64,000 nt of DNA from Gemmatimonadales bacterium (lineage in GTDB: Bacteria; Gemmatimonadota; Gemmatimonadetes; Gemmatimonadales; GWC2-71-9). The notes beneath the pieces were generated by a model, which was not told the DNA's origin, did not search any database, and saw only the letters and a list, made by a program, of their open reading frames with translations. Where the stretch lies: NCBI GenBank assembly GCA_019637315.1, contig JAHBVU010000010.1, forward strand, positions 1-64,000. Reading direction: 5' to 3'. A program made the translations under genes and the position numbers. The first letter of the stretch is position 1, and each line of letters starts with the position of its first letter. Below are positions 1 through 20,050 of the stretch, in pieces.

Positions 1-243
1 AACATCAACATCAATTTGTATTCCGAACGGCCCGCGCTTCCTACGTATATCGAGTACTCGGTCGATGGGAAAAAGCTCGGGGAGGAAGACCAAAGCAAGC
101 GGGTTTCGCGCGACGGGATCATCCGGGAAGTCGAGGTTGGTGCGGTTTTGTCACCTCGCGCGGCCAGGGCAATCATCGTTTGGCTCGGCATCCAGCTCGA
201 CAAGCTGGAATCCCATAAAGAGAAGGGCGCCGACGAAGCATGA
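1..243 (+). CDS. Hypothetical protein, 5'-truncated by window edge (weakly DUF3467-like)
   Basis: The reading frame is open from base 1, so the start lies outside the window and at least 80 residues are visible. The C-terminal part (SPRAARAIIVWLGIQLDKLE) resembles the end of DUF3467 proteins, where an SPxxAKxLxxxL helix is followed by an acidic helix; this is a weak resemblance and not a firm assignment. No signal peptide or membrane segment is visible. Its stop overlaps the start of the next gene by four bases (ATGA), which indicates one transcript. It lies in a stretch that is less GC-rich than the rest of the window, at the edge of a probable integrated element. Function unknown. Confidence 0.6.
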   Translation, partial: NININLYSERPALPTYIEYSVDGKKLGEEDQSKRVSRDGIIREVEVGAVLSPRAARAIIVWLGIQLDKLESHKEKGADEA

Positions 244-776
244 CACCAGCGGTTGCGCAGTCAAGTGGTGGTTCTTTCACGGACCACGCGACGGGTCTTT
301 GGGACATTGAGGCGTTGTCAGCTAGCTTCGCCGGGCCGACACAGACGCCGCGAAAGGCCCAGCCCTCACTGGCGAGCGGTACAAAAGCAGGCGAGGTGTA
401 CGAAAGGGCAATAAATGCGAGCCAGGCGGGCCCACTTTGGGCTAGGCAGCTCGCGGAGTTGCGTGCCCTCCCGGTCGATTGGGACGAGTACGGCGCGGAA
501 CGCCCCACGTTGGAAGCCCTTGCTGCGATGTCCTCATTGCTCAACCAGTATTCCCACCGCGACCAAGTGCCCGTGCACGTCGGAGCCTCGCCCGATGGGG
601 GTGTTGCCGCGGTCTTTGGTTCGGACATCCGGCGAGTCACGGTCGAGATTGCCAACAGTGGTGAGATTCTGGTGGCCATGTCTGCGGGGCGGGACACGAA
701 CGTCCGCGAGGTCGCTCGGAACAAGGATTCCATTGAGGGGCTGATTCACGACACTGGCATCTTTCTCTCCCTGTAG
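240..776 (+). CDS. Hypothetical protein, second gene of island-edge operon
   Basis: A 178-residue protein of unknown function, probably cytoplasmic: no signal peptide or membrane segment is seen. The central part (residues about 70-150) contains LPVDWDEYGAERP, then a VGASPDGGVAAVFG stretch, and a final beta-rich part containing VEIANSGEILVAMS. This W-D-x-Y-G ... P-x-x-G-G-V pattern suggests a small alpha/beta domain, but I cannot name the family. The ATG overlaps the preceding stop (ATGA), so it is likely translationally coupled, and it ends 19 bases before the next gene. Three unknown genes side by side next to a tRNA attachment fragment suggest cargo of a mobile element. A defence or toxin-antitoxin role is possible but not shown. 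Confidence 0.7.
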   Translation: MTPAVAQSSGGSFTDHATGLWDIEALSASFAGPTQTPRKAQPSLASGTKAGEVYERAINASQAGPLWARQLAELRALPVDWDEYGAERPTLEALAAMSSLLNQYSHRDQVPVHVGASPDGGVAAVFGSDIRRVTVEIANSGEILVAMSAGRDTNVREVARNKDSIEGLIHDTGIFLSL

Positions 777-795
777 CCCCGCAGGCGCCGCAGGA

Positions 796-1221
796 ATGGT
801 TATCGATCCGGATCAGGACTTCGACCCCACCGAAGAGCTCTACCTACGCCTGAGTCTCGAGCGACGCCCTACACAGTCCGCAATAAAAAAAGCCATTGCC
901 GAGCAGGTTCATTTCCCGAAATGTTCAGTCAATCGAGGGAAGTACTCTGAACCGTATGACGTGGTCCGACTCAAGCCCGGATGGAGCGTCGGTGTGTTCG
1001 AGGTCCGAGATATCCCAGCCAGCCTCGAATGCAAGGTGCAGGGCCTTTACGAGTTCTTTGTATTCCACTGCCCCGAAGCCGATACCGATGGCGTGATGAA
1101 CTATGCGCACAGCGAGATCCGGTCTAGGTTCGACGGCAACCTGCGACAACCGGGCCGCTTGGTGAAGTTCGAGTTCCGCGAGCTAATCGCGTTCCGAATG
1201 AAGGTCCTTCCGCCGCTGTAG
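796..1221 (+). CDS. Hypothetical protein, third gene of island-edge operon
   Basis: A 141-residue acidic protein with no signal peptide and no recognised domain. It starts at ATG 796 with a weak upstream CAGGA and follows the previous gene by 19 bases on the same strand. The sequence has many charged residues and beta-strand-like segments (GWSVGVFEVRDIP, KFEFRELIAFRMKV). Its base composition is lower in GC than the genes after position 1600, including a run of seven A within the coding region, in line with recent acquisition. It is the last gene before the element end; an inverted repeat follows 22 bases after its stop. Function unknown. Confidence 0.65.
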   Translation: MVIDPDQDFDPTEELYLRLSLERRPTQSAIKKAIAEQVHFPKCSVNRGKYSEPYDVVRLKPGWSVGVFEVRDIPASLECKVQGLYEFFVFHCPEADTDGVMNYAHSEIRSRFDGNLRQPGRLVKFEFRELIAFRMKVLPPL

Positions 1222-1243
1222 AGCGTCGGCTACGCCAGGCTCA

Positions 1244-1272
1244 ACGGACACCATAGCATCTTAGGTGTCCGT
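1244..1272 (+). terminator. Stem-loop after island genes, with a third copy of its arm
   Basis: ACGGACACC (1244-1252) pairs perfectly with GGTGTCCGT (1264-1272) across an 11-base loop, and TTT follows the second arm. GGTGTCC occurs again at 1276-1282. It may end transcription of the three upstream genes. The repeated GGTGTCC close to the attachment fragment could equally be recombinase binding sites. Confidence 0.4.
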
Positions 1273-1388
1273 TTTGGTGTCCATTAGACCCGGCAGGATT
1301 CGGCCTCGATGTCGGCCCGCCCCGGCAAGAGCGTTGACCGTCAAGGGTTTAGCCGGCAGGATGCCGGCGGATGGATGCCCCAGCCTTA

Positions 1389-1432
1389 GCCTGATAAGCG
1401 TGAGGTCGATAGTTCAACTCTATCCAGGCCCA
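1389..1432 (+). other. 3' fragment of tRNA-Ile(GAU), probable attachment site of an integrated element
   Basis: The sequence matches the 3' half of a tRNA-Ile: anticodon loop CTGATAA (1391-1397, anticodon GAT 1393-1395), 3' anticodon strand GCGTG (1398-1402), variable loop AGGTC, T-stem GATAG/CTATC around loop TTCAACT (1408-1424), 3' acceptor strand CAGGCCC (1425-1431) and discriminator A1432. The 5' half is absent: no GGGCCTG acceptor strand or D-arm lies upstream, and the 5' anticodon strand matches only at its last bases. Integrases that target tRNA 3' ends leave this kind of displaced fragment at the distal end. The intact gene and the integrase would then lie to the left of the window. 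Confidence 0.75.
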
Positions 1433-1608
1433 TGTCCCGGCATATCTGGGGCCGGCGCGAGCAACTCGCGTCGGCCTTTTGTCATTGCCCTCGGGGCCTC
1501 GTCTGGTGCGCCAGCTCCAGGCGGGAAGCGTCATACCCTTGGCCGGTCGGGCTACGTCGACAGCCCGGATGGCGGCCACTCTTGTGCACCTGCAGACCGA
1601 GACCCCGG

Positions 1609-2835
1609 ATGACCGTTCCGTCGAAGATGCGCATCGCCTCCGGCGCGCCCTATTGGCTGATGCGAAATGGCCTGTTCGAGCCGCCCGAGCGGCCGCTGCC
1701 CTCTCGCGCTGACGTCTTGATCGTCGGGGCCGGCATTACCGGCGCCCTGCTGGCCGATGCCCTTGTCCGGGAGGGGCGGGAGGTAGTCGTCCTGGAGCGC
1801 CACGCCCCGGCTGAGGGTAGTACCGGTGTCAGCACCGCCCTGCTGCAGTATGAACTCGATGTCGAACTCGGGTCGCTGGCGGATCGTGTTGGCATCGATC
1901 AGGCGGTGCGCGCGTACCGCCGGTGTGCCGAAGCCATTGACGATCTCGCTGCGCTGGCGGCCTCCCTGGGTGACGGTTGCGATTTCCAGCGCGTCACCAG
2001 TGTGTACCTCGCCTCACGCCGGCGAGATGCCAAACGGCTCAGGCATGAGGCCGAACTGCGCCAGGCTCATGGCTTCGATGTCCGTCCGCTGACCCGGCGC
2101 GAGCTGGCGGCGCGTTATGATGTTCCGGGTGCGGCCGCGCTGGAAACGCCGCATGCTGCGCAGGTCGACCCGGTCGCGCTGACCCGGCGTCTGCTGAACC
2201 GGGCGGTGGCCGCCGGTGCCATCGTCTGCCCGAGGACGGCGCTGCTCGAATGGCAGGATGAGGGGGCCCGATGCCGAGTCATGACGACGCGCGGCCAGTG
2301 CATGGCGCGGTTCGTCGTATTTGCGACGGGGTACGAGCTTCCGCCCAAGGTTCCGAACGGAGCGGTCGCGCTGCACAGCACCTACGCATTCGTGACCCAG
2401 CCCGGGCCGTACCCGGGCCCGCTCGGTCGGGGTGCGGTCTTCTGGGAAACGGCGCGGCCGTACACCTACATGCGCACCACGGTCGATGGCCGTGTCCTGG
2501 TGGGCGGCATGGACGTGCCGTTTCGGCATGCGGACGGGCGCGATGCGCTGTTGCCGGTCAGGGTCCGCGCGCTCGAAACGCGAGCGGCGCGCTTGCTGGG
2601 GATTGAGTCGCTCGAACGAGCCTTCGCCTGGGCTGGCACGTTTGCCGCCACGCCGGACGGATTACCGTACATCGGACGGCTTCCGGGCGAGGGTCGAGCG
2701 TTTGCGGCCCTGGGCTACGGCGGCAATGGAATCGTCTTCAGCACCATTGCCGCCGAGCTGATTAGTGCGCAGGTAGAGGGTCGACGGCATCCCGACCAGA
2801 GCCTCTTTCACTTCGACCGCGCTCGGCGCACCTGA
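1609..2835 (+). CDS. FAD-dependent amine/D-amino-acid oxidoreductase (DAO/DadA-like)
   Basis: A 408-residue flavoprotein of the DAO fold, expected to oxidise a secondary amine or D-amino acid in the cytoplasm. The Rossmann motif GAGITG lies at residues 40-45, followed by the acidic end of strand 2 (VVVLERH) and an STGVST segment typical of glycine-oxidase/DadA-like proteins. A late GTFAATPDGLPYIG segment matches the C-terminal FAD-contact region of the family. The frame stays open back to 1432, but that part overlaps the tRNA fragment and has no family similarity, so ATG 1609 is chosen; ATG 1627 is an alternative. It is the first gene outside the proposed island. The exact substrate cannot be read from sequence. 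Confidence 0.8.
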   Translation: MTVPSKMRIASGAPYWLMRNGLFEPPERPLPSRADVLIVGAGITGALLADALVREGREVVVLERHAPAEGSTGVSTALLQYELDVELGSLADRVGIDQAVRAYRRCAEAIDDLAALAASLGDGCDFQRVTSVYLASRRRDAKRLRHEAELRQAHGFDVRPLTRRELAARYDVPGAAALETPHAAQVDPVALTRRLLNRAVAAGAIVCPRTALLEWQDEGARCRVMTTRGQCMARFVVFATGYELPPKVPNGAVALHSTYAFVTQPGPYPGPLGRGAVFWETARPYTYMRTTVDGRVLVGGMDVPFRHADGRDALLPVRVRALETRAARLLGIESLERAFAWAGTFAATPDGLPYIGRLPGEGRAFAALGYGGNGIVFSTIAAELISAQVEGRRHPDQSLFHFDRARRT

Positions 2836-2871
2836 CCAGCCAGGCCCCATGGTGCGGATCGGGCCGGCTCC

Positions 2872-3195
2872 TCAGTTGGTGCGATGCACCGGTCCGCCCA
2901 TTCTGCGCCGTACTGCCTCATCATCCAGCTGGGGGGCGCGTCCCGCTCGATCGGCCGGCGATCGCGTTGAGGTCGGCGCGGCGGAGTAGGCCGCATTCCC
3001 GGTCAACAGGGCATCCATCTCCTGCTCGGCCTTCTCCCCGCTGATACCGTACTCGGCCGCGATCAGGGTGCGAATCCGGTCCCAGTCGCCCTCGGTGGCG
3101 TCGAGCTCCTTTTCTGCCAGGTTCGACCAGCGCTTCAGGATCCGGTCCTTGAGATCAGGCCAGCGCTCTCGGTCATGGTTGCGTTCGTGCTGCAT
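2872..3195 (-). CDS. CsbD-like general stress protein
   Basis: A 107-residue protein. Residues about 15-65 (WPDLKDRILKRWSNLAEKEL, then EGDWDRI and YGISGEKAEQEMDALL) match the CsbD/YjbJ pattern: a short hydrophilic helical bundle found in general stress proteins whose molecular role is unclear. The C-terminal 40 residues are low-complexity, charged and probably disordered. Start ATG at 3195 has a good ribosome site (GGAAGGAGG) on the minus strand. It is convergent with the oxidoreductase, leaving 36 bases between the stops, and divergent from the iron-sulfur protein. Confidence 0.8.
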   Translation of the reverse strand: MQHERNHDRERWPDLKDRILKRWSNLAEKELDATEGDWDRIRTLIAAEYGISGEKAEQEMDALLTGNAAYSAAPTSTRSPADRAGRAPQLDDEAVRRRMGGPVHRTN

Positions 3196-3586
3196 GAGCT
3201 GCCTCCTTCCAGAGTGATCGTCGCATTCCGCCAGTGTTCGAGAGTCGGCCCGGGGTTCGGCAGGTGCGAACGAAATCTACTCGTGCCGGGCGCCGATTCC
3301 GGATGCGGTCTCTATCGGGGTGACGCCGAGCCACGTCGGGTCGGGCACATCAAAATGCGCAGAAAGCGGGTTATGGTCCGTCCATGCGCAGTTCCCGTTC
3401 GCATCGCGTCCGGACGGGCGTGGATCGCTCGCCCCCATCGGGGTCGTCGAGACGGGGCAGCTGTGCCGGAGGTGCTGCGTTACAGGGCAGCGACAATGGC
3501 AGGCTACCGTCCGGCGAGAGGGCGCTTACCTTCCTGGCGAGCGGCGGGTATCGGCGGTCGGCGGGCGGGACGAACGAGGAGGTCAG
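3196..3586. other. Divergent intergenic region
   Basis: A 391-base gap between divergent genes. The far side carries a strong ribosome site (GAGGAGG, 3576-3582). Short open frames cross it, including one on the plus strand at 3384-3590 that ends inside the next gene's start, but they are rich in Ser/Arg/Gly and have no recognisable domain. I see no clear promoter or RNA gene. Confidence 0.5.
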
Positions 3587-3826
3587 ATGACCAAGCGTGT
3601 GCAGAGCTATGAGACGGACGAGATCACGGTCACTTTCGATCCCAACGTGTGCATTCATTCCGGCGTCTGTGTCCGGACCCTGCCTGCCGTTTTCGATATT
3701 CGTCGCAAGCGATGGATCGCTCCCGAGGCGGCGCCGGCTGCGGAGGTGGCCGCGATGATTCGAACCTGTCCTTCTGGCGCGCTGCAGTACCGGCTTCGCG
3801 GTGAAGGTGCGGACACCGGGGCGTGA
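3587..3826 (+). CDS. YjdI-type single-cluster iron-sulfur (Fer4_19) protein
   Basis: A 79-residue protein in which the Fer4_19 pattern is clear: CIHSGVC at residues about 24-30, an FDIRRKRWIAP stretch, and CPSGALQY near residue 64. The conserved cysteines are expected to hold one small iron-sulfur cluster, suggesting a minor electron carrier or redox sensor; the exact role of the family is not established. The start ATG at 3587 is set by GAGGAGG five bases upstream, although the frame is open from 3320. It stands alone between a divergent stress gene and a convergent transporter. Confidence 0.82.
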   Translation: MTKRVQSYETDEITVTFDPNVCIHSGVCVRTLPAVFDIRRKRWIAPEAAPAAEVAAMIRTCPSGALQYRLRGEGADTGA

Positions 3827-3854
3827 GCCCTCGGACCGGTGGCGGGTAGATCTG

Positions 3855-5543
3855 TCAGTTCGGCGTGACGCTTGACGGATGCTCGCCTGTTCCGCCCAGG
3901 GCCATCAGGGCCTCATCAAAGCTGAGCGACAGCTCGCCAGGTTCGAAGAGCTGTGACAGGTGGGACGCGGCGACGGTGGCGCGGACCCGGGGGTCGAGGT
4001 TGCAGAGCAGGACCTGAATGCCCTCTTTGCGGCATTGGCGAACCACTTCGGCCAGCGCCCTGAGCCCGGTCGAGTCGATCACCGGCACGTCGTCCATGTC
4101 GAGAATCAGAGCCCGTGGCTTCCAGTGGACCTGCCGCAGGGCATCCTTGAATGACTCTGCCGCGCCGAAGAAGAACGGTCCGTTGATGTCGTAGACTTTG
4201 ACGTCGCGAGGTACCCGTTGCCGCTGTGCCTGCTTGGTCTCCTCACGAAGTTCATCGCTCCCCGATTCCTGCTCCAGACCCATCGGCTCGATGGTTGCGA
4301 TCTCTGACATCCGTTTCATGAACAGAAATGCGGCGAGAACCATTCCGACCGCAATGGCGACGCTGAGGTCGACCAGCACCGTCAGCCCGAAGGTGGCGAG
4401 CATGATCGCGACGTCGGTACGCGGCGCGCCGCGGATTTCGGACCGGAAGGTGCGCCACTCGCTCATATGGTACGCCACCATCACGAGAATGGCGGCCAGC
4501 GTGGCCATCGGAATCATCGCGGCGTAGCGCCCGGCAAACAGGGTGATGACCAGCAGGGTGAGGGCGTGCACCACGCCCGCGATCGGGGTCCGTCCGCCGT
4601 TCCGGACGTTGGTCGCCGTGCGGGCAATGGCGCCGGTTGCCGGCATGCCGCCGAAAAGCGGAGAAGCAATGTTTGCCGCCCCCTGCGCGATCAGCTCCAT
4701 GTTGCTGCGATGGCGGCTGCCGATCATCCCGTCCGCCACGACTGCCGAGAGTAGCGACTCGATCGCGCCGAGCAGGGCCAGGGTCAGGGCAGGCGCTGCG
4801 AGATCGATCAGCATCCGTTCTGTGACGGTCGGCCAGTGCGGGCTCGGCAGGCGCGCATCGATGACACCGAAGCGCGACCCGATGGTGTCGACCGGCAGCT
4901 CGAAGAAGGCGACGACGACGGTACCGGCAACCAGGGCAACGAAGGGCGCCGGAACTTTGGTCGACACACGGGGCCAGAGGACGAGGATGGCCAGCGTCCC
5001 GAAGCCGAGCACCGCGGTCGTGAGATCCACGGTGCTTGCGTGGGCCAGATAACTGGCCCATTTGCCGAAGAACTCCGCAGGCACGGCTTCGATCGAGAGG
5101 CCCAGCAGATCTTTGATCTGCTGGGAAAAGATGATGAGCGCAATGCCGGCCGTGAACCCCGTGATGACGGGGAATGGGATGAACTTGATGACCGCGCCGA
5201 GCTTGAGCAGGCCCATCGCCACGAGGAGAAACCCGGCCATCAGCGTCGCGACGATCAGCCCATCCACCCCGTACTGAGCGACGATCCCGGCCACGATGAC
5301 CACAAAGGCCCCCGTCGGGCCGCCGATCTGCACCCGTGATCCGCCCAGCAATGAAATCAGAAGGCCGGCAACGATTCCCGTGTAGAGCCCCCGTTCAGGC
5401 GTGAGGCCGCTGGCAATGGCAAAGGCAATGCAGAGGGGAAGGGCCACGACACCAACAATGACACCGGCCGTCAGATCCGCAGCGAACTGCGGCCGCGTGT
5501 AGCCTTGCAGGGTGGTCAGCAGCTTGGGAACGAAGTGCGACAT
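3855..5543 (-). CDS. SulP family inorganic anion transporter with STAS domain
   Basis: A 562-residue inner-membrane protein of the SLC26/SulP family, which moves sulfate, bicarbonate or other anions. About 10-12 hydrophobic segments occupy residues 20-410, starting with the family signature GVIVGVVALPLCIAFAIASG; GGSRVQIGGPTGAF follows. The C-terminal STAS domain (about 440-550) carries the VIDSTG loop at 488-493, the position equivalent to the phosphorylated serine of SpoIIAA-type proteins. Its ATG lies only two bases after the stop of the upstream Ser/Thr kinase gene on the same strand, so kinase and transporter are almost certainly cotranscribed. The transported anion cannot be told from sequence. 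Confidence 0.9.
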   Translation of the reverse strand: MSHFVPKLLTTLQGYTRPQFAADLTAGVIVGVVALPLCIAFAIASGLTPERGLYTGIVAGLLISLLGGSRVQIGGPTGAFVVIVAGIVAQYGVDGLIVATLMAGFLLVAMGLLKLGAVIKFIPFPVITGFTAGIALIIFSQQIKDLLGLSIEAVPAEFFGKWASYLAHASTVDLTTAVLGFGTLAILVLWPRVSTKVPAPFVALVAGTVVVAFFELPVDTIGSRFGVIDARLPSPHWPTVTERMLIDLAAPALTLALLGAIESLLSAVVADGMIGSRHRSNMELIAQGAANIASPLFGGMPATGAIARTATNVRNGGRTPIAGVVHALTLLVITLFAGRYAAMIPMATLAAILVMVAYHMSEWRTFRSEIRGAPRTDVAIMLATFGLTVLVDLSVAIAVGMVLAAFLFMKRMSEIATIEPMGLEQESGSDELREETKQAQRQRVPRDVKVYDINGPFFFGAAESFKDALRQVHWKPRALILDMDDVPVIDSTGLRALAEVVRQCRKEGIQVLLCNLDPRVRATVAASHLSQLFEPGELSLSFDEALMALGGTGEHPSSVTPN

Positions 5544-5545
5544 GG

Positions 5546-8164
5546 TTACGGCGTGGGAGGCGAGGTCGTTTCGGCCAGTTCGGCGCGGAAGCGATCCGCC
5601 TCGGCGGTCATGCCGAGGGCCGTATACGCAGCAGCCAGGTCAGTTCGGGCGGCTCTGAGAAAGCTGACGGCCGGATCGGTCTGCTTCGCCAGGATCTCGT
5701 AGCCGGCCAGGCTTTCGGTCGCAGCCTCGCGATGGCGATTCTGACGCAGCAGGGCCCGCCCCAGCTTGATCCGGGCTATCCCCGTGTTCAGGTTGTCGGG
5801 GCCGAGACTATGGTGGTAGCCCTCGATCGCTTCGCGATAGAGGGCCTCCGCGCGCCGATAGTCACGGCGCTCCACGGCAACGCTGGCGAGATTCGACAAG
5901 GCGGTGGCGAGCAGATAGTGATTGGGTCCGTGGACCGTGCGATAGATGGTTGCCATCCTCGCGAAACGTGAGTCTGCTTCGTCCAGGCGATCCTCGGCGA
6001 GTGCGATCGACCCCAGATCGCTGAGCGTCGATGCCACCGAAGGATGATTGGGCCCGAAGACGCGTTCGCGGATGGCAAGCGCACGTTCCAGAATCGGCAC
6101 GGCTTCGCTCCGACGCTGCTGGAAAAGCAGAGATCGGCCGATCAGCGTCAGCGCCAGGGCGGTGCGGTGATGGTCCGCGCCGTACCACGGCTCCACGATG
6201 GCAAGCGCCTGCCGATGATACCGTTCCGCCTCGGCATAGCGTCCCAGATCGTGCTGGATCGCTCCCAGGTTTGCGAGGTCTTCGGCAACCAGCGGGTGGC
6301 TTGGTCCGTAGAGCTGCCGGGTCATGGCCAGGACCCGGTGGTTGAGCGAGTCGGACGTGTCGTAATTGCCGGCGTAGAAGTGGGCGCTGGCGAGCACAGA
6401 CAGCGTGCTGGCGAGTTCCGGCGTTACGATGCCAGTTGGATACCGACCGCGGGTTTCCGACAGCAGGGCAATGGCGCCCGGGTAGTCACCGCGAGCCGAG
6501 AGCACCTGACCGAGTGCGGTGCGCGCGGCGAGCACGTCAGGATGATTGGCGGGGAGCAGTGCTTCGCTGAGGGTCGTGCCCTGGCGGATCAGGCTGTCGG
6601 CGGCCTCGAGTTCCGCCTGCTCCAGCCGAAGCAGACCCAGCGCGACTGTTGCTTTCGCCACATCGGGATGACGAGGTCCGTGGCGTTCGCGTCGCAGGTC
6701 GAGTCCGGCACGGATCAGCGTGTCGGCCTGGGCCATCCTGCCCAGCTTCTGGGCTATGCTGCCGAGCGTGAGATACAGTTCTGCCTGGACCTGTGGCTCG
6801 GTGCTGAGGCCACGGGCCTCCTGAATACCCCGTTCGACCAGCGTCACGACCCGGAGGCTGTCGGCTGGCCCGACGGCTGCCTCTCCGCCGGCAAACAGGT
6901 TCATCATGAAGCCCTGAATCCGCCCGGTTCGCTCGACCTGCGCGACGGCGAGGTCGCGCGCTTCGGCGAGCCGCACGGTGTAGAAGACGGCCATCACGAG
7001 CGCCGCGGCGGCGACGGTGCCGGCTGCGGCAACCGGGCGGGCGTTCCGTCGCACGAATTTGCCGAGTCGGTAGCTCAGCGAGTCGGCTCGCGCCTCCAGG
7101 GGTACCCCGGCCTCGTACCGATCCAAGTCGCGAACCAGGGCGTCGACGGTCTGGTAGCGCCGGGTCGGGTCGGGGTGCATGGCCGTGCGGCAGATCACGT
7201 CGAGGTCGGCCCACTCGCTGCGGGAGGCGGACACCGGAGCATCGGGGACCGTCGACGGTCGTGACGTCGTTGATGCGCGGCTGGCAGGGTCCCCTTCGTT
7301 GCCTGTTTCGGAGGCGCGCCGACCGGTCAGCAGTTCGAAGAGAACGGCCCCCAGCGCATAGACATCGGTCGGTGTACCGAGCGGCCCGCCGGTAAACTGC
7401 TCGGGTGCGGCATACGCCGGCGTCAGCAGGCGGAGGCCGGTGCGTGTCTGATCGGGGGCACCACCGTCCGTGTCGGCGAAGTGTTTGGCAATCCCGAAAT
7501 CGAGCAGTTTGACGGCGCCATCCGAGCGAACCAGGATGTTCGAGGGCTTGATGTCGCGATGAATGACGGCGTGCTGATGCGCATGCTGCACCGCCAGCGC
7601 CGCCGCGCGGAAGATCGACAGACGCTCGGCCAGGGTCGACCGTTGCCGCCCGCAGTACTCGGTGACGGCCAGCCCCTTGATGTACTCCATGGCAAACCAC
7701 GGGGTGCCGTCGGGCAGGGTGCCGGCGTCGAAGAGCTGGGCAATGCCCGGGTGGCTGAGCCCGGCCAAGGTCCGCTGCTCGACCGCGAACCGGTGGCGGC
7801 GCGAGGGCGAAAGGGTGTCGCGCAGAATCTTGATCGCGGCGACGCTCGCCAGGTCGGCACGCTCGCCGAGATAGACGACACCCATGCCTCCTTCGCCGAG
7901 CAAACGGATCAACCGGTAAGGCCCGAAGGACTGATCGAAGGGGCGGGCGTCCGCGTCGTTCAGCATCGAGGAGGCAACCGACGCGAGGTCCTGTCCGAGC
8001 AACGGGTGCTGGTCGCGGTCGGCATCGAGTAGGGTGCGAACGTCCTGAATCAGAGTCCTGTCGCCACCGGCCTCCGACTCGAGGGCGGCCGTTCGCTCGT
8101 TGGGTGGCAGGTCGGCGACGGCGTGAAAGATCGCCTGGACCCGTTCCCAGCGCTTCGGATCCAT
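5546..8164 (-). CDS. Membrane Ser/Thr protein kinase with C-terminal TPR repeats
   Basis: An 872-residue Hanks-type kinase. A glycine-rich loop GEGGMG lies at residues 90-95, the ATP lysine at 112 (AAIKIL), HRD at 202-204 and DFG at 222-224. One transmembrane segment at about 378-398 separates the cytoplasmic kinase from a C-terminal half made of tetratricopeptide repeats (repeated YAEAERYHRQALAI-like units, about 450-860), which probably bind a protein or peptide partner. The chosen ATG at 8164 overlaps the TGA of the upstream ECF sigma gene; an in-frame ATG 33 bases further upstream would lie inside that gene. Sigma factor and kinase form the usual ECF-STPK pair, and the following gene encodes a SulP transporter. 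Confidence 0.9.
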   Translation of the reverse strand: MDPKRWERVQAIFHAVADLPPNERTAALESEAGGDRTLIQDVRTLLDADRDQHPLLGQDLASVASSMLNDADARPFDQSFGPYRLIRLLGEGGMGVVYLGERADLASVAAIKILRDTLSPSRRHRFAVEQRTLAGLSHPGIAQLFDAGTLPDGTPWFAMEYIKGLAVTEYCGRQRSTLAERLSIFRAAALAVQHAHQHAVIHRDIKPSNILVRSDGAVKLLDFGIAKHFADTDGGAPDQTRTGLRLLTPAYAAPEQFTGGPLGTPTDVYALGAVLFELLTGRRASETGNEGDPASRASTTSRPSTVPDAPVSASRSEWADLDVICRTAMHPDPTRRYQTVDALVRDLDRYEAGVPLEARADSLSYRLGKFVRRNARPVAAAGTVAAAALVMAVFYTVRLAEARDLAVAQVERTGRIQGFMMNLFAGGEAAVGPADSLRVVTLVERGIQEARGLSTEPQVQAELYLTLGSIAQKLGRMAQADTLIRAGLDLRRERHGPRHPDVAKATVALGLLRLEQAELEAADSLIRQGTTLSEALLPANHPDVLAARTALGQVLSARGDYPGAIALLSETRGRYPTGIVTPELASTLSVLASAHFYAGNYDTSDSLNHRVLAMTRQLYGPSHPLVAEDLANLGAIQHDLGRYAEAERYHRQALAIVEPWYGADHHRTALALTLIGRSLLFQQRRSEAVPILERALAIRERVFGPNHPSVASTLSDLGSIALAEDRLDEADSRFARMATIYRTVHGPNHYLLATALSNLASVAVERRDYRRAEALYREAIEGYHHSLGPDNLNTGIARIKLGRALLRQNRHREAATESLAGYEILAKQTDPAVSFLRAARTDLAAAYTALGMTAEADRFRAELAETTSPPTP

Positions 8165-8727
8165 CAGAGGGATCGCTGCAGCTCGCGACCGAGCCACGCC
8201 TTGGCCGCGCGCCAGTCGCGCAGTACGGTTGCTTCGGAGATGCCCAGTTCTTCGGCAATCTCGCGGGTCTCGAGTCCGCCAAAGAAGCGGCTCTCGACCA
8301 TCGTCGCCTGGCGCGGGCTCAGGCGGGCGAGTTCGTCCAGGGCCGCGTCGAGGCCGAGCAGTTCATCGGCCGAGGTTGGCGTGGCGGACGCGGCGTCGTC
8401 GTAGGTAATCACGGCGACGCCAGCACCGCGTTTGCGAGCGTTGCGCCGGCGGGCGGCATCGACCAGGATCTGTCGCATGGCGCGGGCGGCAATCCGCTTG
8501 AAGTGCACCTGCGATGTGGCGGCCAGGCCGGGCGAATTGGCCATCTTGAGCCACGCTTCGTGGACCAGCGCCGTCGGGTTCATCGAGGCGTGGGGGTCGT
8601 CCCGATGGACGCTGGAGGCCAGGCGACGCAACTCTTCATACGCCAGACTGAAGAGGTCATCGAACGCCTGTCTGTCCTGGTCCATCGATGCCCCGATATG
8701 ATGCGGTTGCGGTAACAAGCCTATCAT
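8164..8727 (-). CDS. ECF-type RNA polymerase sigma factor (kinase-associated class)
   Basis: A sigma-70-like protein of 187 residues, or 173 if ATG 8685 is used. Region 2 includes AFDDLFSLAYEELRRLA and NPTALVHEAWLKM, followed by HFKRIAARAMRQILVDAARR. Region 4 includes LDELARLSPRQATMVESRFFGG and a helix-turn-helix (TREIAEELGISEATVLRDWR). This layout is typical of ECF-like sigma factors found with Ser/Thr kinases in Planctomycetota, Acidobacteriota and Gemmatimonadota. No anti-sigma gene adjoins it. The stop overlaps the kinase start (ATGA), suggesting coupled synthesis. The longer start is listed because the fold usually begins upstream of AFDDLF. Confidence 0.88.
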   Translation of the reverse strand: MIGLLPQPHHIGASMDQDRQAFDDLFSLAYEELRRLASSVHRDDPHASMNPTALVHEAWLKMANSPGLAATSQVHFKRIAARAMRQILVDAARRRNARKRGAGVAVITYDDAASATPTSADELLGLDAALDELARLSPRQATMVESRFFGGLETREIAEELGISEATVLRDWRAAKAWLGRELQRSL

Positions 8728-8876
8728 CCACGGGACCGCTGCCGCAACTGTGACGCATCGTACCCGGGCGGCCTGCTGTTAGAATACCGCCTTCCCGCTG
8801 TTCAGAGGGCATCGAGTCGTTCGCCGCCGGGCAAGGTGGTGCCGGGCGATGCATCCCTTCTCTCCAGAGAGCCAGT

Positions 8877-10571
8877 ATGCGTTTCCCAAGGTTCGATCAG
8901 GTGGTCGTTGGGCTGGCTGGCGCGCTCATTCTGGGCGGGGCCGCGCCCGTGGCAGCGCAAAGAATCGGCGGCGCCCAGGCTCGGGCCATCGACCGCGTCT
9001 TCGACCGGTTTGCCGGCACCGCGACACCGGGCTGTGCGGTCGGCGTATATCGAGGTCGCTCGATTGCCTACGCCCGGGGGTATGGCATGGGCAACCTCGA
9101 GCTCGGGGTTCCGATCGGTACGGCGTCGACCTTTCAACTCGCTTCGGTATCCAAGCAGTTCACGGCCATGGCCCTGGTGCTGCTCGAGCAGGATGGCGCC
9201 CTCCGTCTCGATGACGACATCCAGCGGTATCTGCCCGAGGTGCCGACGTTCGGTCGTAGTGTCACCATTCGGCAGATGATCAACCACACGAGCGGCATCC
9301 GGGACGGCCTGACCCCCCTCGTGCTCGGGGGCTTGCAGTACCCTGGCGAGTCGATTCGGCTCCTGGATGCGTTGAGCGCGGTAACCCGACAGGAGCGACT
9401 CGAGTTCGAGCCGGGCACGGACTACAGCTATAGCAATGCCACCTACTGGCTGATGGGGATCATCGTCCAGCGGGTCACAGGTCACAGCCTCACGGAGTTT
9501 ACGACGGACCGGATCTTCAAACCGCTCGGGATGCACCGCACCAGGTTCCACGGCGATCCGGCCAGCCTGCTGCCCGGGCGGACGCATGCGTATTCGCTGC
9601 GGGGCTCGGACTCGACGTATCGCCTGGATATTCCCTTCTACGAGTCGGTTGGCGCGGGCGGGCTCTACAGTTCGGTCGACGACCTGGTTCACTGGCATCG
9701 CAACTTTGTCGACGGCACCGTCGGTGGCGCAGCGGGGATCCGGGCTATGGAAACCCGTGGTGTGCTGGCGAGTGGTGATACCCTGGCCTACGCTCTGGGC
9801 ATCGCGCGCGGCAGCTATCGCGGAGCCGTCACCTGGTCGCATTCGGGGTCGGATGGTGGTTATCGGACCTACCTGGTGCGGTTGCCAGAGCATGATCTCG
9901 GGGTTGCCGTGCTCTGTAACGCGAATCACGCGGCGCCGACATTGCTTGCTGAGCAGGTAGTCGACATCGTGCTGGGCGCGGCGCTCCCGGCACGGGCCGA
10001 CTCGATCGTTCCCGCCGGGGCGGCGAGCACCGCTGCCGAGCTGGCGGAGCACGCCGGTTACTACCGCAACGAGCGCGATCTCTATCGGTTCGCGGTGCAC
10101 GAGGGTGCGCTCCGATTCGGGTTGACGCCGCCGGGCCGTCCGCTCCGGGCCCTCGGCGGCAACCGCTATCAACTGGGCGCCGATTCGCTGGGGCTCTTCA
10201 CTTTTCGGCAACGGGACGGTCGCTGGGTGGTGGAGCGGCCCCATCCCTACATCGCGGGCCGGATCATGGAACTTGCCGCGTCGCCGGCTGGGGCGCCCAC
10301 GGCCGACCAGCTGGCGGCCTATGCTGGCGAGTACTGGAGCGAAGACGTCGGGGCGGCCGCGACGGTGTCGGTGAAGGAAGGTCGCCTGGTGATTCGGCAT
10401 CATCGGGGTGATGAGGTGCCGCTTCGGCCAAGTATCGCTGATGGCTTCGTTCCGGTGGGGTCCGGGTCAGGGCGCTATCAGTTTCAACGTCACGGCGATT
10501 CCTGGAGTGTGGTTGGTTTCGTCATCGACACGGATCGGGCGCACGGCATCCGGTTCGTCCGCCGGCGCTGA
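8877..10571 (+). CDS. Secreted serine hydrolase, beta-lactamase/D-aminopeptidase family (S12)
   Basis: A 564-residue exported protein. It has a signal peptide ending near APVAAQ (residue 28), catalytic SVSK at 90-93, YSN in YSYSNATYW near residue 185, and an HSG triad-equivalent in HSGSDGGYRT near 322. These are the three boxes of penicillin-binding-like serine hydrolases. A C-terminal region of about 200 residues contains two similar beta-rich units (AEHAGYYRNERD and LAAYAGEYWSED), as in D-aminopeptidase-type proteins. The likely role is hydrolysis of D-residue peptides, esters or cell-wall fragments in the periplasm; substrate unknown. Closest relatives in this window by pattern are the genes at 50648 and 54536. 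A new transcription unit on the plus strand. Confidence 0.87.
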   Translation: MRFPRFDQVVVGLAGALILGGAAPVAAQRIGGAQARAIDRVFDRFAGTATPGCAVGVYRGRSIAYARGYGMGNLELGVPIGTASTFQLASVSKQFTAMALVLLEQDGALRLDDDIQRYLPEVPTFGRSVTIRQMINHTSGIRDGLTPLVLGGLQYPGESIRLLDALSAVTRQERLEFEPGTDYSYSNATYWLMGIIVQRVTGHSLTEFTTDRIFKPLGMHRTRFHGDPASLLPGRTHAYSLRGSDSTYRLDIPFYESVGAGGLYSSVDDLVHWHRNFVDGTVGGAAGIRAMETRGVLASGDTLAYALGIARGSYRGAVTWSHSGSDGGYRTYLVRLPEHDLGVAVLCNANHAAPTLLAEQVVDIVLGAALPARADSIVPAGAASTAAELAEHAGYYRNERDLYRFAVHEGALRFGLTPPGRPLRALGGNRYQLGADSLGLFTFRQRDGRWVVERPHPYIAGRIMELAASPAGAPTADQLAAYAGEYWSEDVGAAATVSVKEGRLVIRHHRGDEVPLRPSIADGFVPVGSGSGRYQFQRHGDSWSVVGFVIDTDRAHGIRFVRRR

Positions 10572-10639
10572 AGTCGAAAGCGGCCCGGACCGGGCGCCGT
10601 CCCTAGTGAGCGGCCGAGCCAGGCCTTACGTTGCTATCC

Positions 10640-12721
10640 ATGCATGATGCGCACGAGTTTCTTCGGTCGCTGACGATCGTCCTGGCCGTCGGGGCCTTTG
10701 TCGCGTACCTGTTTCAGCGGATCAAGCAGCCCGTCGTGCTCGGCTACTTGATTGCCGGGTTGCTGGTCGGTCCGTATGTGCCGGTTGGTTTCGTTGCCGA
10801 CAAGGCCATCGTCCAGACACTGTCTGAGCTGGGCGTGATTCTCCTGATGTTCTCGCTCGGGCTGGAGTTCAGCCTTCGCAAGCTGGTCAAGCTCGGGTCG
10901 ACGGCGGGGCTGACGGCGGTGATTCAGGCCGGGATCGTTGCGTGGCTGGGCTTTCTGGTCGGGCAGCTGTTCGGCTGGGGTCACCTGGAAAGCATTTTTC
11001 TCGGCGTCGCGATTGCCATCTCGAGTACGACCATCATTGCCAAGGTCTTCGACGAGCAACGGGTCACCGGCCGGCTGCGTGATCTGGTGGTTGGCATCCT
11101 CCTCTTCGAGGATCTGATCGCGGTCATCGGGATGGCGGCGCTCACGGCGATTGCGACGGGCGGAGGGCTCTCGGCGTCTGCACTGGCAATCACTATCGGT
11201 CGCCTGGGGCTCTTCCTGGTGCTGCTGGTCGGGATCGGGATTCTGGTGATACCCCGGGCCATGCGCGCGGCCACGATGCGGAGCACCCCGGAAATCGTGG
11301 TCGTGATGGGAATCGGGATCTGCTTCGCGATGGCGTACCTTGCGCAGGAGGCTGGATACTCGATTGCGCTGGGCGCGTTCATGGCGGGGTCGCTGATGGC
11401 GGAGGGCGGGCTTGGTGAGCACGTCGACCATGCCATCAAACCGGTGCGCGACCTCTTCGCCGCCGTCTTTTTCGTGTCGGTCGGCATGCTGATCGATCCG
11501 GCGCTCCTGGTCGCCCATTGGCAGCCGATCGTCGTGCTGACGCTGGTGGTCGTGGTCGGCAAGATCTTCAGCGTCGCTCTCGGTGCTTTTCTGGCCGGTA
11601 CCCCGACGAGAACGGCCATCCAGGCCGGGATGAGTCTCGCGCAGATCGGCGAGTTCTCGTTCATCATCGCGGGGCTTGGTCTCTCGCTCGGCAGGACTGG
11701 TGAGTACGTCTTCCCGGTGATAGTCGCGGTGTCGGCCATTACCACGATGTTGACGCCGTGGCTGGTCCAGAACTCCAGTCGGGTCGCGGCGGCCGTCGAT
11801 CGCCGGATGCCCCCGCGACTGCAGACCCTGACCTCGCTGTACGGCTCCTGGCTCGACCGGCCCCGAAAATCGGCTGCCACACGGCGCGGCTTCTGGCGCG
11901 TCGTCGGGCTGCTCCTGGTCGACGCCGCAGTGCTGAGCGGCATCCTGGTGGCGGTCAGCCTCTTCTTCACCACCCTGGTGGATGCGACCGTCGGCGCGAC
12001 CGGTGTTACACCAGGTGTGGCTCGAATCGCGATCATCGTGGCCGCCGGGTTGGTGGCCTCACCGCTCGTGGTCGGAATCGGACGTCTCGGTCGTCGGCTT
12101 GGCGACCGGGTGGCCCAGCGGGCCTTTCCCCCGGTGGCCAAGGGGTTGGATCTCAATCGCACGCCGCGCCAGCTGCTGACGCTGGTGCTCCAACTGGTCA
12201 TCGTGTTGCTGACGGGCATGGCGGTCGTTGCGGTGACGCAGCCATTCCTGTCGACGTTCACGGGGCCGCTCATTCTGATCGTGTTTCTGGCGGGCTACGC
12301 CGTGGCGATCTGGCGGCGCGCCTCCGACCTCGACGGCCACGTCAAAGCGGGTGCGGAAGTCGTCGTGGCTGGCTTGGCGCGTCAGGCGCATGCCGGTGCG
12401 CGGCCGGAGCGGCTCGAGATGCCTGATCAGGTCAAGGAACTGCTGCCCGGCCTCGGCGCGCCGATGGTGGTAACCCTCGGCGATGGGAGTTACGCGGTGG
12501 GCCGAACTCTGGCCGACCTCGAGCTGCGGAGCCGGACCGGCGCGCTGATCCTGGCGATTGCCCGCGCCGATGCCTCGATACCCGTGCCCGGGCCGGAGGA
12601 ACGCCTCCAGGCAGGCGACCGGCTGGCGGTGGCGGGGTCGCACGAATCGATCGGCGCTGCCGAGAGACTTCTGTCCATCGGCGACCCTCCCGGCGACCTG
12701 GGGCCAGCGTCGCACTTGTAG
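10640..12721 (+). CDS. CPA2 family K+(Na+)/H+ antiporter with TrkA-C domain
   Basis: A 693-residue membrane protein. Residues about 1-390 form some 12 transmembrane segments with the CPA2/KefB signature (QPVVLGYLIAGLLVGP, LGVILLMFSLGLEFSL). Two or three further hydrophobic segments follow at about 430-560. The C-terminus (about 600-690) resembles a TrkA-C domain (MVVTLGDGSYAVGRTLADLEL, then RLQAGDRLAVAGSHE), a ligand-binding regulatory unit. No TrkA-N nucleotide-binding domain is seen. It is expected to exchange a monovalent cation for protons. TTG 10631 is in frame, but ATG 10640 is preferred. The preceding gene ends 68 bases upstream on the same strand. Confidence 0.87.
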   Translation: MHDAHEFLRSLTIVLAVGAFVAYLFQRIKQPVVLGYLIAGLLVGPYVPVGFVADKAIVQTLSELGVILLMFSLGLEFSLRKLVKLGSTAGLTAVIQAGIVAWLGFLVGQLFGWGHLESIFLGVAIAISSTTIIAKVFDEQRVTGRLRDLVVGILLFEDLIAVIGMAALTAIATGGGLSASALAITIGRLGLFLVLLVGIGILVIPRAMRAATMRSTPEIVVVMGIGICFAMAYLAQEAGYSIALGAFMAGSLMAEGGLGEHVDHAIKPVRDLFAAVFFVSVGMLIDPALLVAHWQPIVVLTLVVVVGKIFSVALGAFLAGTPTRTAIQAGMSLAQIGEFSFIIAGLGLSLGRTGEYVFPVIVAVSAITTMLTPWLVQNSSRVAAAVDRRMPPRLQTLTSLYGSWLDRPRKSAATRRGFWRVVGLLLVDAAVLSGILVAVSLFFTTLVDATVGATGVTPGVARIAIIVAAGLVASPLVVGIGRLGRRLGDRVAQRAFPPVAKGLDLNRTPRQLLTLVLQLVIVLLTGMAVVAVTQPFLSTFTGPLILIVFLAGYAVAIWRRASDLDGHVKAGAEVVVAGLARQAHAGARPERLEMPDQVKELLPGLGAPMVVTLGDGSYAVGRTLADLELRSRTGALILAIARADASIPVPGPEERLQAGDRLAVAGSHESIGAAERLLSIGDPPGDLGPASHL

Positions 12722-12914
12722 GCGAGAGGATCGGCGGTTCGACCCGGTGCGAATGGATTGGCTGTCAGGACAGCGGTGACCTCGTGATTTGCTCGGGCTT
12801 GCCTTCCGATTGAGCCGGTTATTTCTTGCCTGATTAGCGGCATAAGGAGCCGGATGTACCGCCCCGCAGGTTATTCCGATACCATTTCAGGCAGCGACGT
12901 CGTGGAGCGTTCTC

Positions 12915-13787
12915 GTGTCCACTGAAACTTCATTGCTACCCTCCGGCCGCACCCTCGGCGTGATTGGCGCTGGGGTCATGGGCCAAACCATTCTCAAGGG
13001 ACTCCTGGAGCAGGGGGCCGTCACTCCGGACCAGCTCTGGGCCAGCAGCAAAACACCCGAATCCTGTGACCGAGTCGCCAAGCTACTCGGCATCCCGGTG
13101 GAGCAGGATTTTGGCCCTCGTGTGGGGGATGCGGCAATCGTGATCGTCTGTGTCAAACCGGCGCAGATCCCGGCCGTGCTCGGTCGACTTGGCATGCTCG
13201 GCCTTCGGGACGATGCGTTGCTGATCTCGATTGCCGCCGGCGTGACGACCGCGACGCTTGCTGCGGCCCTCGGCACGGCGCACGCCTGGGTCCGCGCAAT
13301 GCCCAACACGCCCTGCGTTGTCGGTCACGGGATGACGGCAGTGTGCGGTGGCCCGACCGCACGGCCGGAGCACCTTGCGCTGGCGCAACGGGTCTTTGCG
13401 GTCGTCGGGCGGAGTGTGGTGCTCGACGAATCGCATTTCAACGCGATCACGGCGCTCAGTGCCAGCGGGCCCGCGTACATGTACCTGATGATGGAGGCGC
13501 TGGCCGACGCGGGCGTCCGGGTGGGTTTGCCTCGCGACAAGGCGCTGATGCTTGTTGCGCAGGCAATGCTCGGCGCCGCCAAGATGGTTCAGGAAACCGG
13601 GCGCCATCCTGCCGCACTGCGTGACGACGTCACGACGCCGGCCGGATGCACCATCGGTGGGTTGCTGATGCTCGAGGACGGGAAGATCCGTTCGGTGCTG
13701 GCCCGGGCCGTCGAGGAAGCGACACGAATCGCCGGACAGCTCGGTCCGGCGGCGCCTGTCGAGGCAGGCAGAAAGGGGTCATCATGA
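12915..13787 (+). CDS. proC: Pyrroline-5-carboxylate reductase
   Basis: A 290-residue cytosolic enzyme that reduces pyrroline-5-carboxylate to proline with NAD(P)H. The N-terminal Rossmann motif LGVIGAGVMGQ is followed by the ProC-typical VIVCVKPAQ, a WVRAMPNTPC segment and, near the C-terminus, LRDDVTTPAGCTIGG. The length matches the family (about 270-290). The start is GTG 12915, with GGAG about eight bases before it. The TGA overlaps the ATG of the following ornithine transaminase gene, so the two enzymes of an ornithine-to-proline route are translationally coupled. Confidence 0.93.
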   Translation: MSTETSLLPSGRTLGVIGAGVMGQTILKGLLEQGAVTPDQLWASSKTPESCDRVAKLLGIPVEQDFGPRVGDAAIVIVCVKPAQIPAVLGRLGMLGLRDDALLISIAAGVTTATLAAALGTAHAWVRAMPNTPCVVGHGMTAVCGGPTARPEHLALAQRVFAVVGRSVVLDESHFNAITALSASGPAYMYLMMEALADAGVRVGLPRDKALMLVAQAMLGAAKMVQETGRHPAALRDDVTTPAGCTIGGLLMLEDGKIRSVLARAVEEATRIAGQLGPAAPVEAGRKGSS

Positions 13788-14992
13788 CCGCAGTCAGTAC
13801 CTCAAAAACCGGCGAGTTCATTGCGCTCGAGGAGCGCTACGGAACCAACAACTACCATCCGCTGCCGATTGTGGTCGAGCGAGGCGAAGGGGCCTGGGTC
13901 TACGACGTCGAAGGCCGTCGCTTCCTCGACTGTCTCAGTTCCTACTCGGCCGTCAACCTGGGGCACGGGCATCCGCGCCTGATCGAAACGCTGACGGAGC
14001 AGGCCGCCCGGGTCACGCTGACGTCACGCGCGTTCCGCAACGATCAGCTCGCCTACTTCGTCAAGGAACTTGCGGAGCTGGCAGGCCTCGACAAGGTCCT
14101 GCCGATGAACACCGGCGCCGAGGCCGTCGAAACGGCAATCAAGGCGGCGCGGCGCTGGGGCTATCGGCGTAAGGGCATTGCCAAGGATCGTGCCAAGATC
14201 ATCGTCTGCGAAGGGAACTTCCACGGTCGGACCACCACCATCGTGGGGTTCTCATCCGAGGAGTCGTATCGCGACGACTTCGGCCCGTTTGCTCCGGGCT
14301 TCGTCCGGATTCCCTTCGGCGATCTCGATGCGCTGGCCGCCGCGATCGACGATGATACCTGTGGCTTCCTGGTCGAGCCGATTCAGTGCGAGTCCGGGAT
14401 CCACATTCCACCGGATGGCTACCTGCGCGCGGCTGCCGAACTCTGTCGGACGCGCAACGTGCTGTTCATGGCGGACGAGATCCAGACCGGCCTCGGGCGC
14501 ACGGGCAAGCGCTGGGCCTGCGATCACGAGGGTGTCACGCCGGATCTGCTGATCGTCGGCAAGGCGTTGTCGGGCGGGGCGTATCCGGTGTCGGCCGTGA
14601 TCGGTCGCGACGAAGTCATGGATCTGTTCAACCCGGGCAGTCACGGCAGCACCTATGGAGGCAATCCGTTGGGATGCGCCGTGGCCCGAACCGCGATGGC
14701 CATTCTGGAAGACGAGGATCTTGCCGGTCGCTCGGCTCGTCTCGGTGCCAAGGTGCTTGCTGCCCTCAAAACGATCAAACATCCGCACATTCGTGAAGTG
14801 CGGGGCCGCGGATTGCTGATTGGCATCGAACTGACCGTGCCGGCCCGGCCCTACTGCGAGCGGCTGGCTGAGCTGGGCCTGCTGTGCAAAGAGACCCACG
14901 ATTTGGTGGTGCGGCTGACGCCACCGCTGGTCGTTGCCGAAGAGGATCTCGACTGGATGATTGCCCAGGTGAAGTCGGTATTTTCCGCCTGA
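13784..14992 (+). CDS. rocD: Ornithine--oxo-acid aminotransferase
   Basis: A 402-residue class III PLP aminotransferase. It converts ornithine plus 2-oxoglutarate to glutamate-5-semialdehyde (which cyclises to pyrroline-5-carboxylate) plus glutamate. The sequence shows the RocD N-terminus (YGTNNYHPLPIVVERGEGAW), NTGAEAVETAIKAARRWGY, the GNFHGRT segment, ADEIQTGLGRTGK, and the PLP lysine in LIVGKALSGGAYP. Start ATG 13784 is preceded by AAAGGGG and overlaps the proC stop; an in-frame start at 13646 would lie inside proC. With ProC directly upstream, the pair makes proline from ornithine without free diffusion between separate loci. Confidence 0.93.
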   Translation: MTAVSTSKTGEFIALEERYGTNNYHPLPIVVERGEGAWVYDVEGRRFLDCLSSYSAVNLGHGHPRLIETLTEQAARVTLTSRAFRNDQLAYFVKELAELAGLDKVLPMNTGAEAVETAIKAARRWGYRRKGIAKDRAKIIVCEGNFHGRTTTIVGFSSEESYRDDFGPFAPGFVRIPFGDLDALAAAIDDDTCGFLVEPIQCESGIHIPPDGYLRAAAELCRTRNVLFMADEIQTGLGRTGKRWACDHEGVTPDLLIVGKALSGGAYPVSAVIGRDEVMDLFNPGSHGSTYGGNPLGCAVARTAMAILEDEDLAGRSARLGAKVLAALKTIKHPHIREVRGRGLLIGIELTVPARPYCERLAELGLLCKETHDLVVRLTPPLVVAEEDLDWMIAQVKSVFSA

Positions 14993-15013
14993 GTCATTCC
15001 GCCGGCCGGTTGC

Positions 15014-15895
15014 TCAATCCGAGCGATCGGCCGGTTTCCGCTCCTGCAGGTACTCCCGCCCGCGCTCCATCAGCTGTACGAAGGTGGCTTCATCACCGTC
15101 CTGCACGGCCGTCCGGACCCGCTGTACCGCGTCCCGCAGCGCATCGAGCGCATCCAGTCCGAAGTCGTTGAGCCGCTGGATTTCGAAGTACAGGTGAGGA
15201 TTCTCGTCGACGACGGGGCTCGCGACCGCGAGCTGCCGGTCGAAGGTGGTACTCGAGAGACGGATCAGTTCGGCAGCCGATTCGCCGCAGTCGGCCAGGG
15301 CCGTTACGAAGGCAATGTTGAGCGCGTGCGAAAGACCGAGGACGTACGCCACCATCCGATCATGCTGATCGAGCGCCATGGGAACGAGGCGGGCCCCGGT
15401 GCCATCAAACAATCTGGCGACGCGTGCGGTCGCGTCGGGGTGACCAACATCGATCACGATGATGTGACGGCCGGTCAGCTCCTCGACCGAGGGACCGAAC
15501 ATGGGGTGAATCGACGTGGTGGCAATCCCGGCCTCGGCAAGACGGGTCAGTCCCGCTCGGAGCGGAGATTTGAGCGATCCAACATCGAAGACGATACCGG
15601 GCGGCTTTCGTTCGCGGATCTCCTCGAGGATCGCGGCGCTCGTTCGGAGCGGAGCGGCCACGGCAATCAGGTCGTGATCGAGCGCGGTCTCCCGCCAGTC
15701 GGCATAGTGCTGGAACCCGGCTGGAACTCCGGCCGGATCGGCAATCTCGACGGTCAGCCCGCGCTGGCGAAGGTATCCAGCCAGCCATGCGCCCATCCGC
15801 CCTGCGCCGCCGATAACCAGCGCACGCTGGGGCGAGGTCCCCCGCGAGGATGCGCCGGAGGCCGCCGCTGACGGGTGGGGAAGTGAGGGTGACAT
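15014..15895 (-). CDS. Prephenate dehydrogenase (TyrA family)
   Basis: A protein of about 293 residues that should oxidise prephenate or arogenate on the way to tyrosine. The NAD(P) motif GGAGRMG lies near residue 30, followed by an acidic strand-2 end (VEIADP). The central VFDVGSLKS and TSIHPMFGPS segments are TyrA signatures (the latter carries the catalytic histidine), and LDQHDRMVAYVLGLSHALN matches the dimer-domain signature. The C-terminal helical part is as expected for a stand-alone TyrA; no chorismate mutase or ACT domain is attached. The frame extends to TTG 15904, but ATG 15895 is preferred. It is convergent with rocD, 21 bases apart. Confidence 0.88.
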   Translation of the reverse strand: MSPSLPHPSAAASGASSRGTSPQRALVIGGAGRMGAWLAGYLRQRGLTVEIADPAGVPAGFQHYADWRETALDHDLIAVAAPLRTSAAILEEIRERKPPGIVFDVGSLKSPLRAGLTRLAEAGIATTSIHPMFGPSVEELTGRHIIVIDVGHPDATARVARLFDGTGARLVPMALDQHDRMVAYVLGLSHALNIAFVTALADCGESAAELIRLSSTTFDRQLAVASPVVDENPHLYFEIQRLNDFGLDALDALRDAVQRVRTAVQDGDEATFVQLMERGREYLQERKPADRSD

Positions 15896-16014
15896 CGGCA
15901 GCAAGGTAGGCCGGCAGGCCCGACTGAGAAAGGTTGGGCCCCGTTCATGGTGATACGTTGTCGTGATTAAACTTGTCCGGGCAGGCAGGTCGATGCACTT
16001 CCAGATGAGGGTTT

Positions 16015-17064: not shown

Positions 17065-17081
17065 TACAGGGGGCCGGCGGG

Positions 17082-17498: not shown

Positions 17499-17633
17499 TG
17501 CTGCCTCGGCTGCAGATTCAGCGCAAGTTAATGACGTGTTGCGTTGGCGCGCCACTGTCAAAGTCTTGGCTCCGCCTCGAATCTGGCGAAGGCCCTGGGG
17601 CGGACTCGACCTTAGGTCATCATTGGAGATAGC

Positions 17634-18492: not shown

Positions 18493-18592
18493 TCTGGCGC
18501 AGCCGCCCAGGCCGGTTGACAGGAATCCGTCGGCAGCGAGACTACCGTTGCGTATCGCACGACTGTAACGACTCGCGAAGAGGATCAGGATC

Positions 18593-20047: not shown

Positions 20048-20050
20048 GGC

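Follow-up and report, generated by a model that had tools for sequence, protein, structure and literature searches.

The region analyzed here (the window) is a stretch of 64,000 bp, bases 1–64,000 of contig C10 (116,914 bp), in the genome of a Gemmatimonadota bacterium (G000; 3.9 Mb, 36 contigs, 95% complete). Contigs below ~8 kb are missing from the assembly of this genome. The features at the beginning of the window and the conserved block farther downstream are listed in Table 1. The first 1388 bp have a GC content of 0.596, beneath that of every other 1388-bp window in the 64 kb (mean 0.655, SD 0.015, minimum 0.609), in agreement with the lower GC that an earlier description of the locus (the initial annotation) had given for the left end. 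Three open reading frames are located in this part. The visible product of the first gave nothing above the cut-off in Pfam, NCBIfam, or PADLOC. The PADLOC match of the second is confined to residues 67–154 (E = 6e-6), and this product matched neither Pfam nor plasmids. For the third, no homologue was detected in 294 other genomes of the class, plasmids, or viral contigs, and no Pfam family was matched. The three genes may constitute a defence operon.

Table 1 Features of the tRNA-Ile-associated locus in the window.
Feature	Position	Strand	Evidence
Right-hand end of integrated element, interior beginning before base 1	1–1388		Low GC, attR core as boundary
Cargo gene, 3′ end, truncated by contig start (80 aa visible)	1–243	+	Open frame
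Cargo gene (178 aa)	240–776	+	Weak similarity over part of its length to PDC-M32A, a candidate defence protein of PADLOC
Cargo gene (141 aa), confined to this genome within the searched sample	796–1221	+	Homologue searches
Candidate attP arm motif GTTGACCGTCAAGGGTTTAGCCGGCAGGATGCCGG, 21 bp ahead of core	1333–1367	+	Profile built on 27 sites from other genomes
Orphan 3′ part of tRNA-Ile(GAU), very probable attR core	1389–1433	+	45-bp exact match to G000:C7:1093–1137, inside intact gene
Rho-independent-type terminator right after the fragment	1449–1477	+	13-bp stem, dG −25.3 kcal/mol, T tail
Gene for FAD-dependent oxidoreductase (DAO), the first one past the element, presumably on the host side	1609–2835	+	PF01266, E = 3e-55
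Syntenic chromosomal block, located 3′ of tRNA-Ile in both congeners (G005 and G003)	20,051–50,539		~15 genes, mostly 60–86% protein identity, largely collinear

The sequence at 1389–1433, GCCTGATAAGCGTGAGGTCGATAGTTCAACTCTATCCAGGCCCAT, is the same at 45 of 45 positions as the 3′ part of an intact tRNA-Ile(GAU) gene in the same genome. It contains the anticodon loop, the 3′ strand of the anticodon stem, the variable loop, the T-arm, the 3′ acceptor strand, and the discriminator A followed by a T. Since this T is common to both copies, the repeat is longer by one base than the 1389–1432 of the initial annotation, whose description of an orphan 3′ half without a 5′ half is otherwise confirmed. 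The repeat in this genome starts at tRNA position 31, with a left boundary (GCC/TGATAA) inside the anticodon stem, on its 5′ strand and immediately ahead of the anticodon loop. The sequence is a fragment because ARAGORN finds no complete tRNA in the 64-kb window. As expected for half a tRNA, it was not recognized in an Rfam search. It is present once in the window, where none of 100 shuffles gave a copy, and is the one orphan 3′ half of tRNA-Ile found in this genome. Elsewhere in the genome, the sequence at C8:88168–88190 matches the anticodon arm of tRNA-Ile exactly over 23 bp but has no T-arm, and is a possible secondary integration scar.

The arm motif upstream of the fragment has an E value of 0.00028 when the search is limited to the 88 bp preceding the core and of 0.44 (rank 2) over the whole 64 kb; it is significant for this fixed position only, not across the 64 kb. 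Its spacing to the core is equal to that of the reference sites. Since several arm types use the same target, no one profile could cover the arms of all sites. The terminator that follows the fragment is taken to have served the chromosomal tRNA-Ile gene before being displaced together with the 3′ half of that gene.

The sole intact tRNA-Ile(GAU) gene that ARAGORN found in this genome is at C7:1094–1167, on the minus strand near the contig start. The gene order on the minus strand of C7 is TypA/BipA, an acidic ORF, tRNA-Ile, a terminator (dG −19, seven T's), and a convergent tyrosine integrase gene that ends ~90 bp past the tRNA 3′ end. Once C7 is read on this strand, the intact tRNA and the displaced 3′ fragment have the same orientation. 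The integrase matches PF00589 (E = 2e-14) and phrog_1 (E = 9e-45), and the R...HxxR...Y residues are kept in the alignment. Its N-terminus is lost at the contig end and was not found on small contigs or contig ends of this genome. The initial annotation had taken the fragment to mark the end of an integrated element and had suggested searching upstream on the same contig for an intact tRNA-Ile(GAU) and an adjacent integrase; the intact gene with an identical 3′ end and the integrase next to it do exist, on C7. The integron-integrase equivalog gave no match to the C7 integrase, and NCBIfam yielded XerC/XerD/XerA-type matches below the cut-off only. A phage origin was rejected, the integrase having no match in phage records or IMG/VR. 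Of 26 loci with related integrases, found in named genomes that are mostly Gemmatimonadota MAGs, approximately 16 have a tRNA-Ile 3′ end within ~150 bp, and related integrases in public genomes show the same arrangement toward tRNA-Ile as on C7. One integrase of the C7 family is located beside tRNA-Arg(CCG) (L185:11002–11202), an apparent change of target.

As the window starts at base 1 of C10, the element spans C7:1093–1, an unassembled gap, and C10:1–1433. The genes at 1–1221, which the initial annotation had assigned to an element on the left, are bounded on the right by the attR core, and the other end of the element is not upstream on the same contig. When all 36 contig starts and 36 contig ends were compared, neither C7:1 nor C10:1 overlapped another contig, and a C7–C10 bridge via a third contig was dropped for this reason. 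The two ends are joined by synteny only: the assembly lacks the central part of the element, so that a single element linking both ends is inferred from gene order. In four other genomes, contigs stop less than ~100 bp from an intact tRNA-Ile (G148:C48, G195:C164, G263:C6, and G249:C66), which is expected if the repeat breaks assemblies. Near the other end of C10, past the window (115,603–116,330), a PF00589 integrase lies ~100 bp from tRNA-Arg(TCG); this is likely a second tRNA-linked island.

Homologues of ~15 window genes, from 20,051 to ~50,500, are located on the 3′ side of TypA and tRNA-Ile in the congeners G005 and G003. C10 is thus the DNA 3′ of tRNA-Ile, and the insert is positioned between C7:1093 and C10:1433. 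G005 has an empty site, in which TypA and an intact tRNA-Ile are followed by the syntenic block, with neither an orphan half nor an integrase. The first 5.8 kb after tRNA-Ile differ between G005 and the window. The distance from the tRNA to the syntenic block is 5.8 kb in G005, ~8 kb beyond the last fragment in G003, and 18.6 kb in the window. The genes at 1609–20,050 are absent between tRNA-Ile and the block in both congeners, and this stretch is therefore variable DNA. The 18.6 kb at 1434–20,050 have a normal GC content. A relative joining tRNA-Ile directly to the gene at 1609 was not found; relatives of this gene are present in 4 of 40 genomes, none of them seen at tRNA-Ile. Both checks put forward in the initial annotation favour its reading; the empty site was recovered in G005 as far as the tRNA is concerned, but not with the gene at 1609 as its neighbour. 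The chromosome may resume after 1432, in line with the strong terminator and the return to normal GC, but the genes at 1609–20,050 have no place at this site in the congeners. Neither a relative carrying the fragment without an insert nor a lack of an identical intact tRNA-Ile, the two outcomes named as contrary to an insertion, was observed.

The distribution of such fragments was surveyed in the class, with one representative genome per species. Repeats of the tRNA-Ile type break MAG assemblies, and the ORF calls in the units described below are mechanical. A pattern search detected the tRNA-Ile 3′ part in 224 of 295 class genomes. At least two copies are present in ~50 of the 295 and at least three in 13, with a maximum of 10; some copies belong to second intact genes. 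From the fetched regions, 62 orphan 3′ halves were collected, most of which start at tRNA position 29–33, and orphan 5′ halves were almost never found. A control with tRNA-Val gave no orphan 3′ halves in 12 genomes. The T-stem is fully paired in 54 of the 62 orphans, and a few carry compensated changes relative to the present tRNA of the host; this pairing and compensation fit a past role of each orphan as a functional 3′ half. Terminator-like hairpins are located behind 39 of the 62 orphans and 16 of 27 intact genes, compared with 18 of 199 random places.

In the relatives, the orphan halves bound head-to-tail stacks of units of 0.5–18 kb. Among 36 complete units, each between two successive sites, 29 have no match to the integrase family or PF00589. 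The remaining seven overlap an integrase-family match, which is full-length in three (G032 and two 17-kb islands of G057). In G057 (C8:1404739–1457469), three islands of 17–18 kb are arranged in tandem at tRNA-Ile, and two of them have full-length integrases of the C7 family. Some integrase-less units consist of one gene or operon, and the cargo of the short units includes Fic, AbiE toxin-antitoxin, cold-shock, beta-lactamase-fold, histidine kinase, HD-domain, and NTPase proteins. In two species (G027 and G227), 603 bp ending at the site are 96% identical between units whose neighbours differ.

Because most units have att sites and no recombinase, they may have been mobilized in trans, now or formerly, by the integrase of a co-resident element. 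The basis for such movement of the cassette-like units is the shared att sites and the one cassette shared by G027 and G227. In an extended form of this idea, the tRNA-Ile of Gemmatimonadota would be a class-wide capture site for short recombinase-less cassettes. These would be bounded by the tRNA 3′ part, often carry their own terminator, and be mobilized in trans by a resident tyrosine integrase specific for tRNA-Ile. The system would be integron-like but built on a tRNA; each orphan half would keep the 3′ half of a former host gene, and a stack would be an ordered record of insertions. We advance this proposal tentatively and with some doubt. The integrase-less units could instead be decayed remnants, each of which arrived with its own integrase and then lost it, with stacks formed by tandem accretion and deletion. 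This explanation has about an even chance of being correct: integrase fragments remain in some units (G003, G027, and G096), complete integrase-bearing islands such as those of G057 stack at tRNA-Ile too, some orphan halves are degenerate, and accretion of cis-mobilizable elements (CIMEs) is known from the literature (PMC5704250, PMC3146451). It accounts less readily for the many very short units (0.5–2.3 kb) in which two att sites enclose a single gene or operon, for the 29 units without a trace of integrase, and for the nearly identical cassette in two species. Judged from sequence alone, movement in trans and decay are nearly evenly matched. The decay reading leaves the interpretation of the window element unchanged.

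For the window itself, the 45-bp repeat, the integrase, synteny, the GC break, the arm spacing, terminators at both ends, and class-private cargo all agree with a tRNA island. With high confidence, the sequence at 1389–1433 is the attR left when an element inserted, by site-specific integration, into the one tRNA-Ile(GAU) gene that this bacterium has. The anticodon arm, CACGC-CTGATAA-GCGTG, is an inverted repeat around a 7-base loop. The integrase would act at this stem-loop, with CACGC and GCGTG as inverted core sites and CTGATAA as a 7-bp overlap; by analogy with the anticodon class of tRNA islands, it would bind the stem and exchange strands in the loop (PMC4383910). The attP of the element would carry its own tRNA 3′ part and terminator, which would restore a complete tRNA gene on the left, and the original 3′ part and terminator of the host would be pushed to the right end, that is, into the window. 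Both the precise crossover point and the copy derived from the host are inferred from this scheme. A partial copy near 26,870 of G027:C15 (L070:11863–11889) consists of a complete upstream arm, then the anticodon arm only, and then unrelated sequence. This copy resembles an integration at a non-tRNA site. Both it and that at G000:C8:88168–88190 fit crossover in the anticodon loop and could represent secondary-site events.

It is possible, although unlikely, that the fragment stems from a different or older insertion or from a stack of several units, in which case the unit at 1–1388 and the integrase on C7 would not belong together. The frequent stacks in relatives, the unassembled gap, and the loss of contigs below ~8 kb would permit this, whereas the single orphan 3′ half found in the genome and the identity of both 3′ parts argue against it. 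An origin as a tRNA pseudogene or chance duplication with no link to integration is highly improbable: tRNA fragments do arise in other ways, for example as a CRISPR spacer (PMC9897764), but here the identity is exact and ends at the tRNA end, an integrase lies beside the intact copy, synteny connects the two, and the breakpoint at position 29–33 recurs in dozens of relatives while tRNA-Val has no such halves.

The window element, interpreted as a site-specific insertion, is an ordinary member of the anticodon-loop type of tRNA islands, a known kind that is new in this lineage. It has no essential difference from the class A islands of Islander, in which the tRNA is rebuilt, the 3′ fragment is displaced to the far end, the integrase is near the intact tRNA, and the boundary is in the anticodon loop (PMC4383910). 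Islander accepts no island that lacks an integrase or is shorter than 2 kb, and its 3919 islands include only four tandems with three or more members; most of the units and stacks of the relatives would consequently be missed (PMC4383910). The nearest precedent for the stacks is the ssrA islands of Dehalococcoides, in which units likewise follow a single RNA gene in tandem, with copies of the 3′ end of that gene as boundaries (PMC3146451). About half of them (15) have no integration module, and they were proposed to be possibly cis-mobilizable (PMC3146451). That system uses a serine recombinase, a tmRNA target, and a 20-bp repeat, whereas the Gemmatimonadota units have a tyrosine recombinase, tRNA-Ile, a repeat of ~45 bp often with a terminator, and many units of 0.5–2 kb. 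In CIME and ICE-IME accretion, as in the stacks of the relatives, att-flanked units lacking a recombinase are located beside elements that have one (PMC5704250); the Gemmatimonadota units differ in being short, numerous, and spread across several families of a class. The resemblance to mobile integrons is one of analogy only, in that one-gene units, most of them without an integrase and some with toxin-antitoxin or defence genes, are arrayed head to tail beside a fixed site and an integrase gene. In contrast to integrons, the site is a tRNA core with arms and not a folded attC, no integron-integrase model was matched, and the cargo orientation is mixed. Among the titles and abstracts listed from the open-licence literature, none was relevant to Gemmatimonadota tRNA islands, and no described case of tRNA-based cassette arrays was found in that literature.

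With these results, one end of a mobile element that had been split in two by the assembly is now fixed. They suggest that contig breaks at tRNA-Ile in Gemmatimonadota genomes often mark islands. Finders requiring an integrase and a minimum length, such as Islander, would overlook short integrase-less stacks behind one tRNA gene. Should movement of the units in trans be real, this little-studied soil phylum would have a gene-capture site with a layout comparable to that of integrons, in which the stack is an ordered record of insertions.
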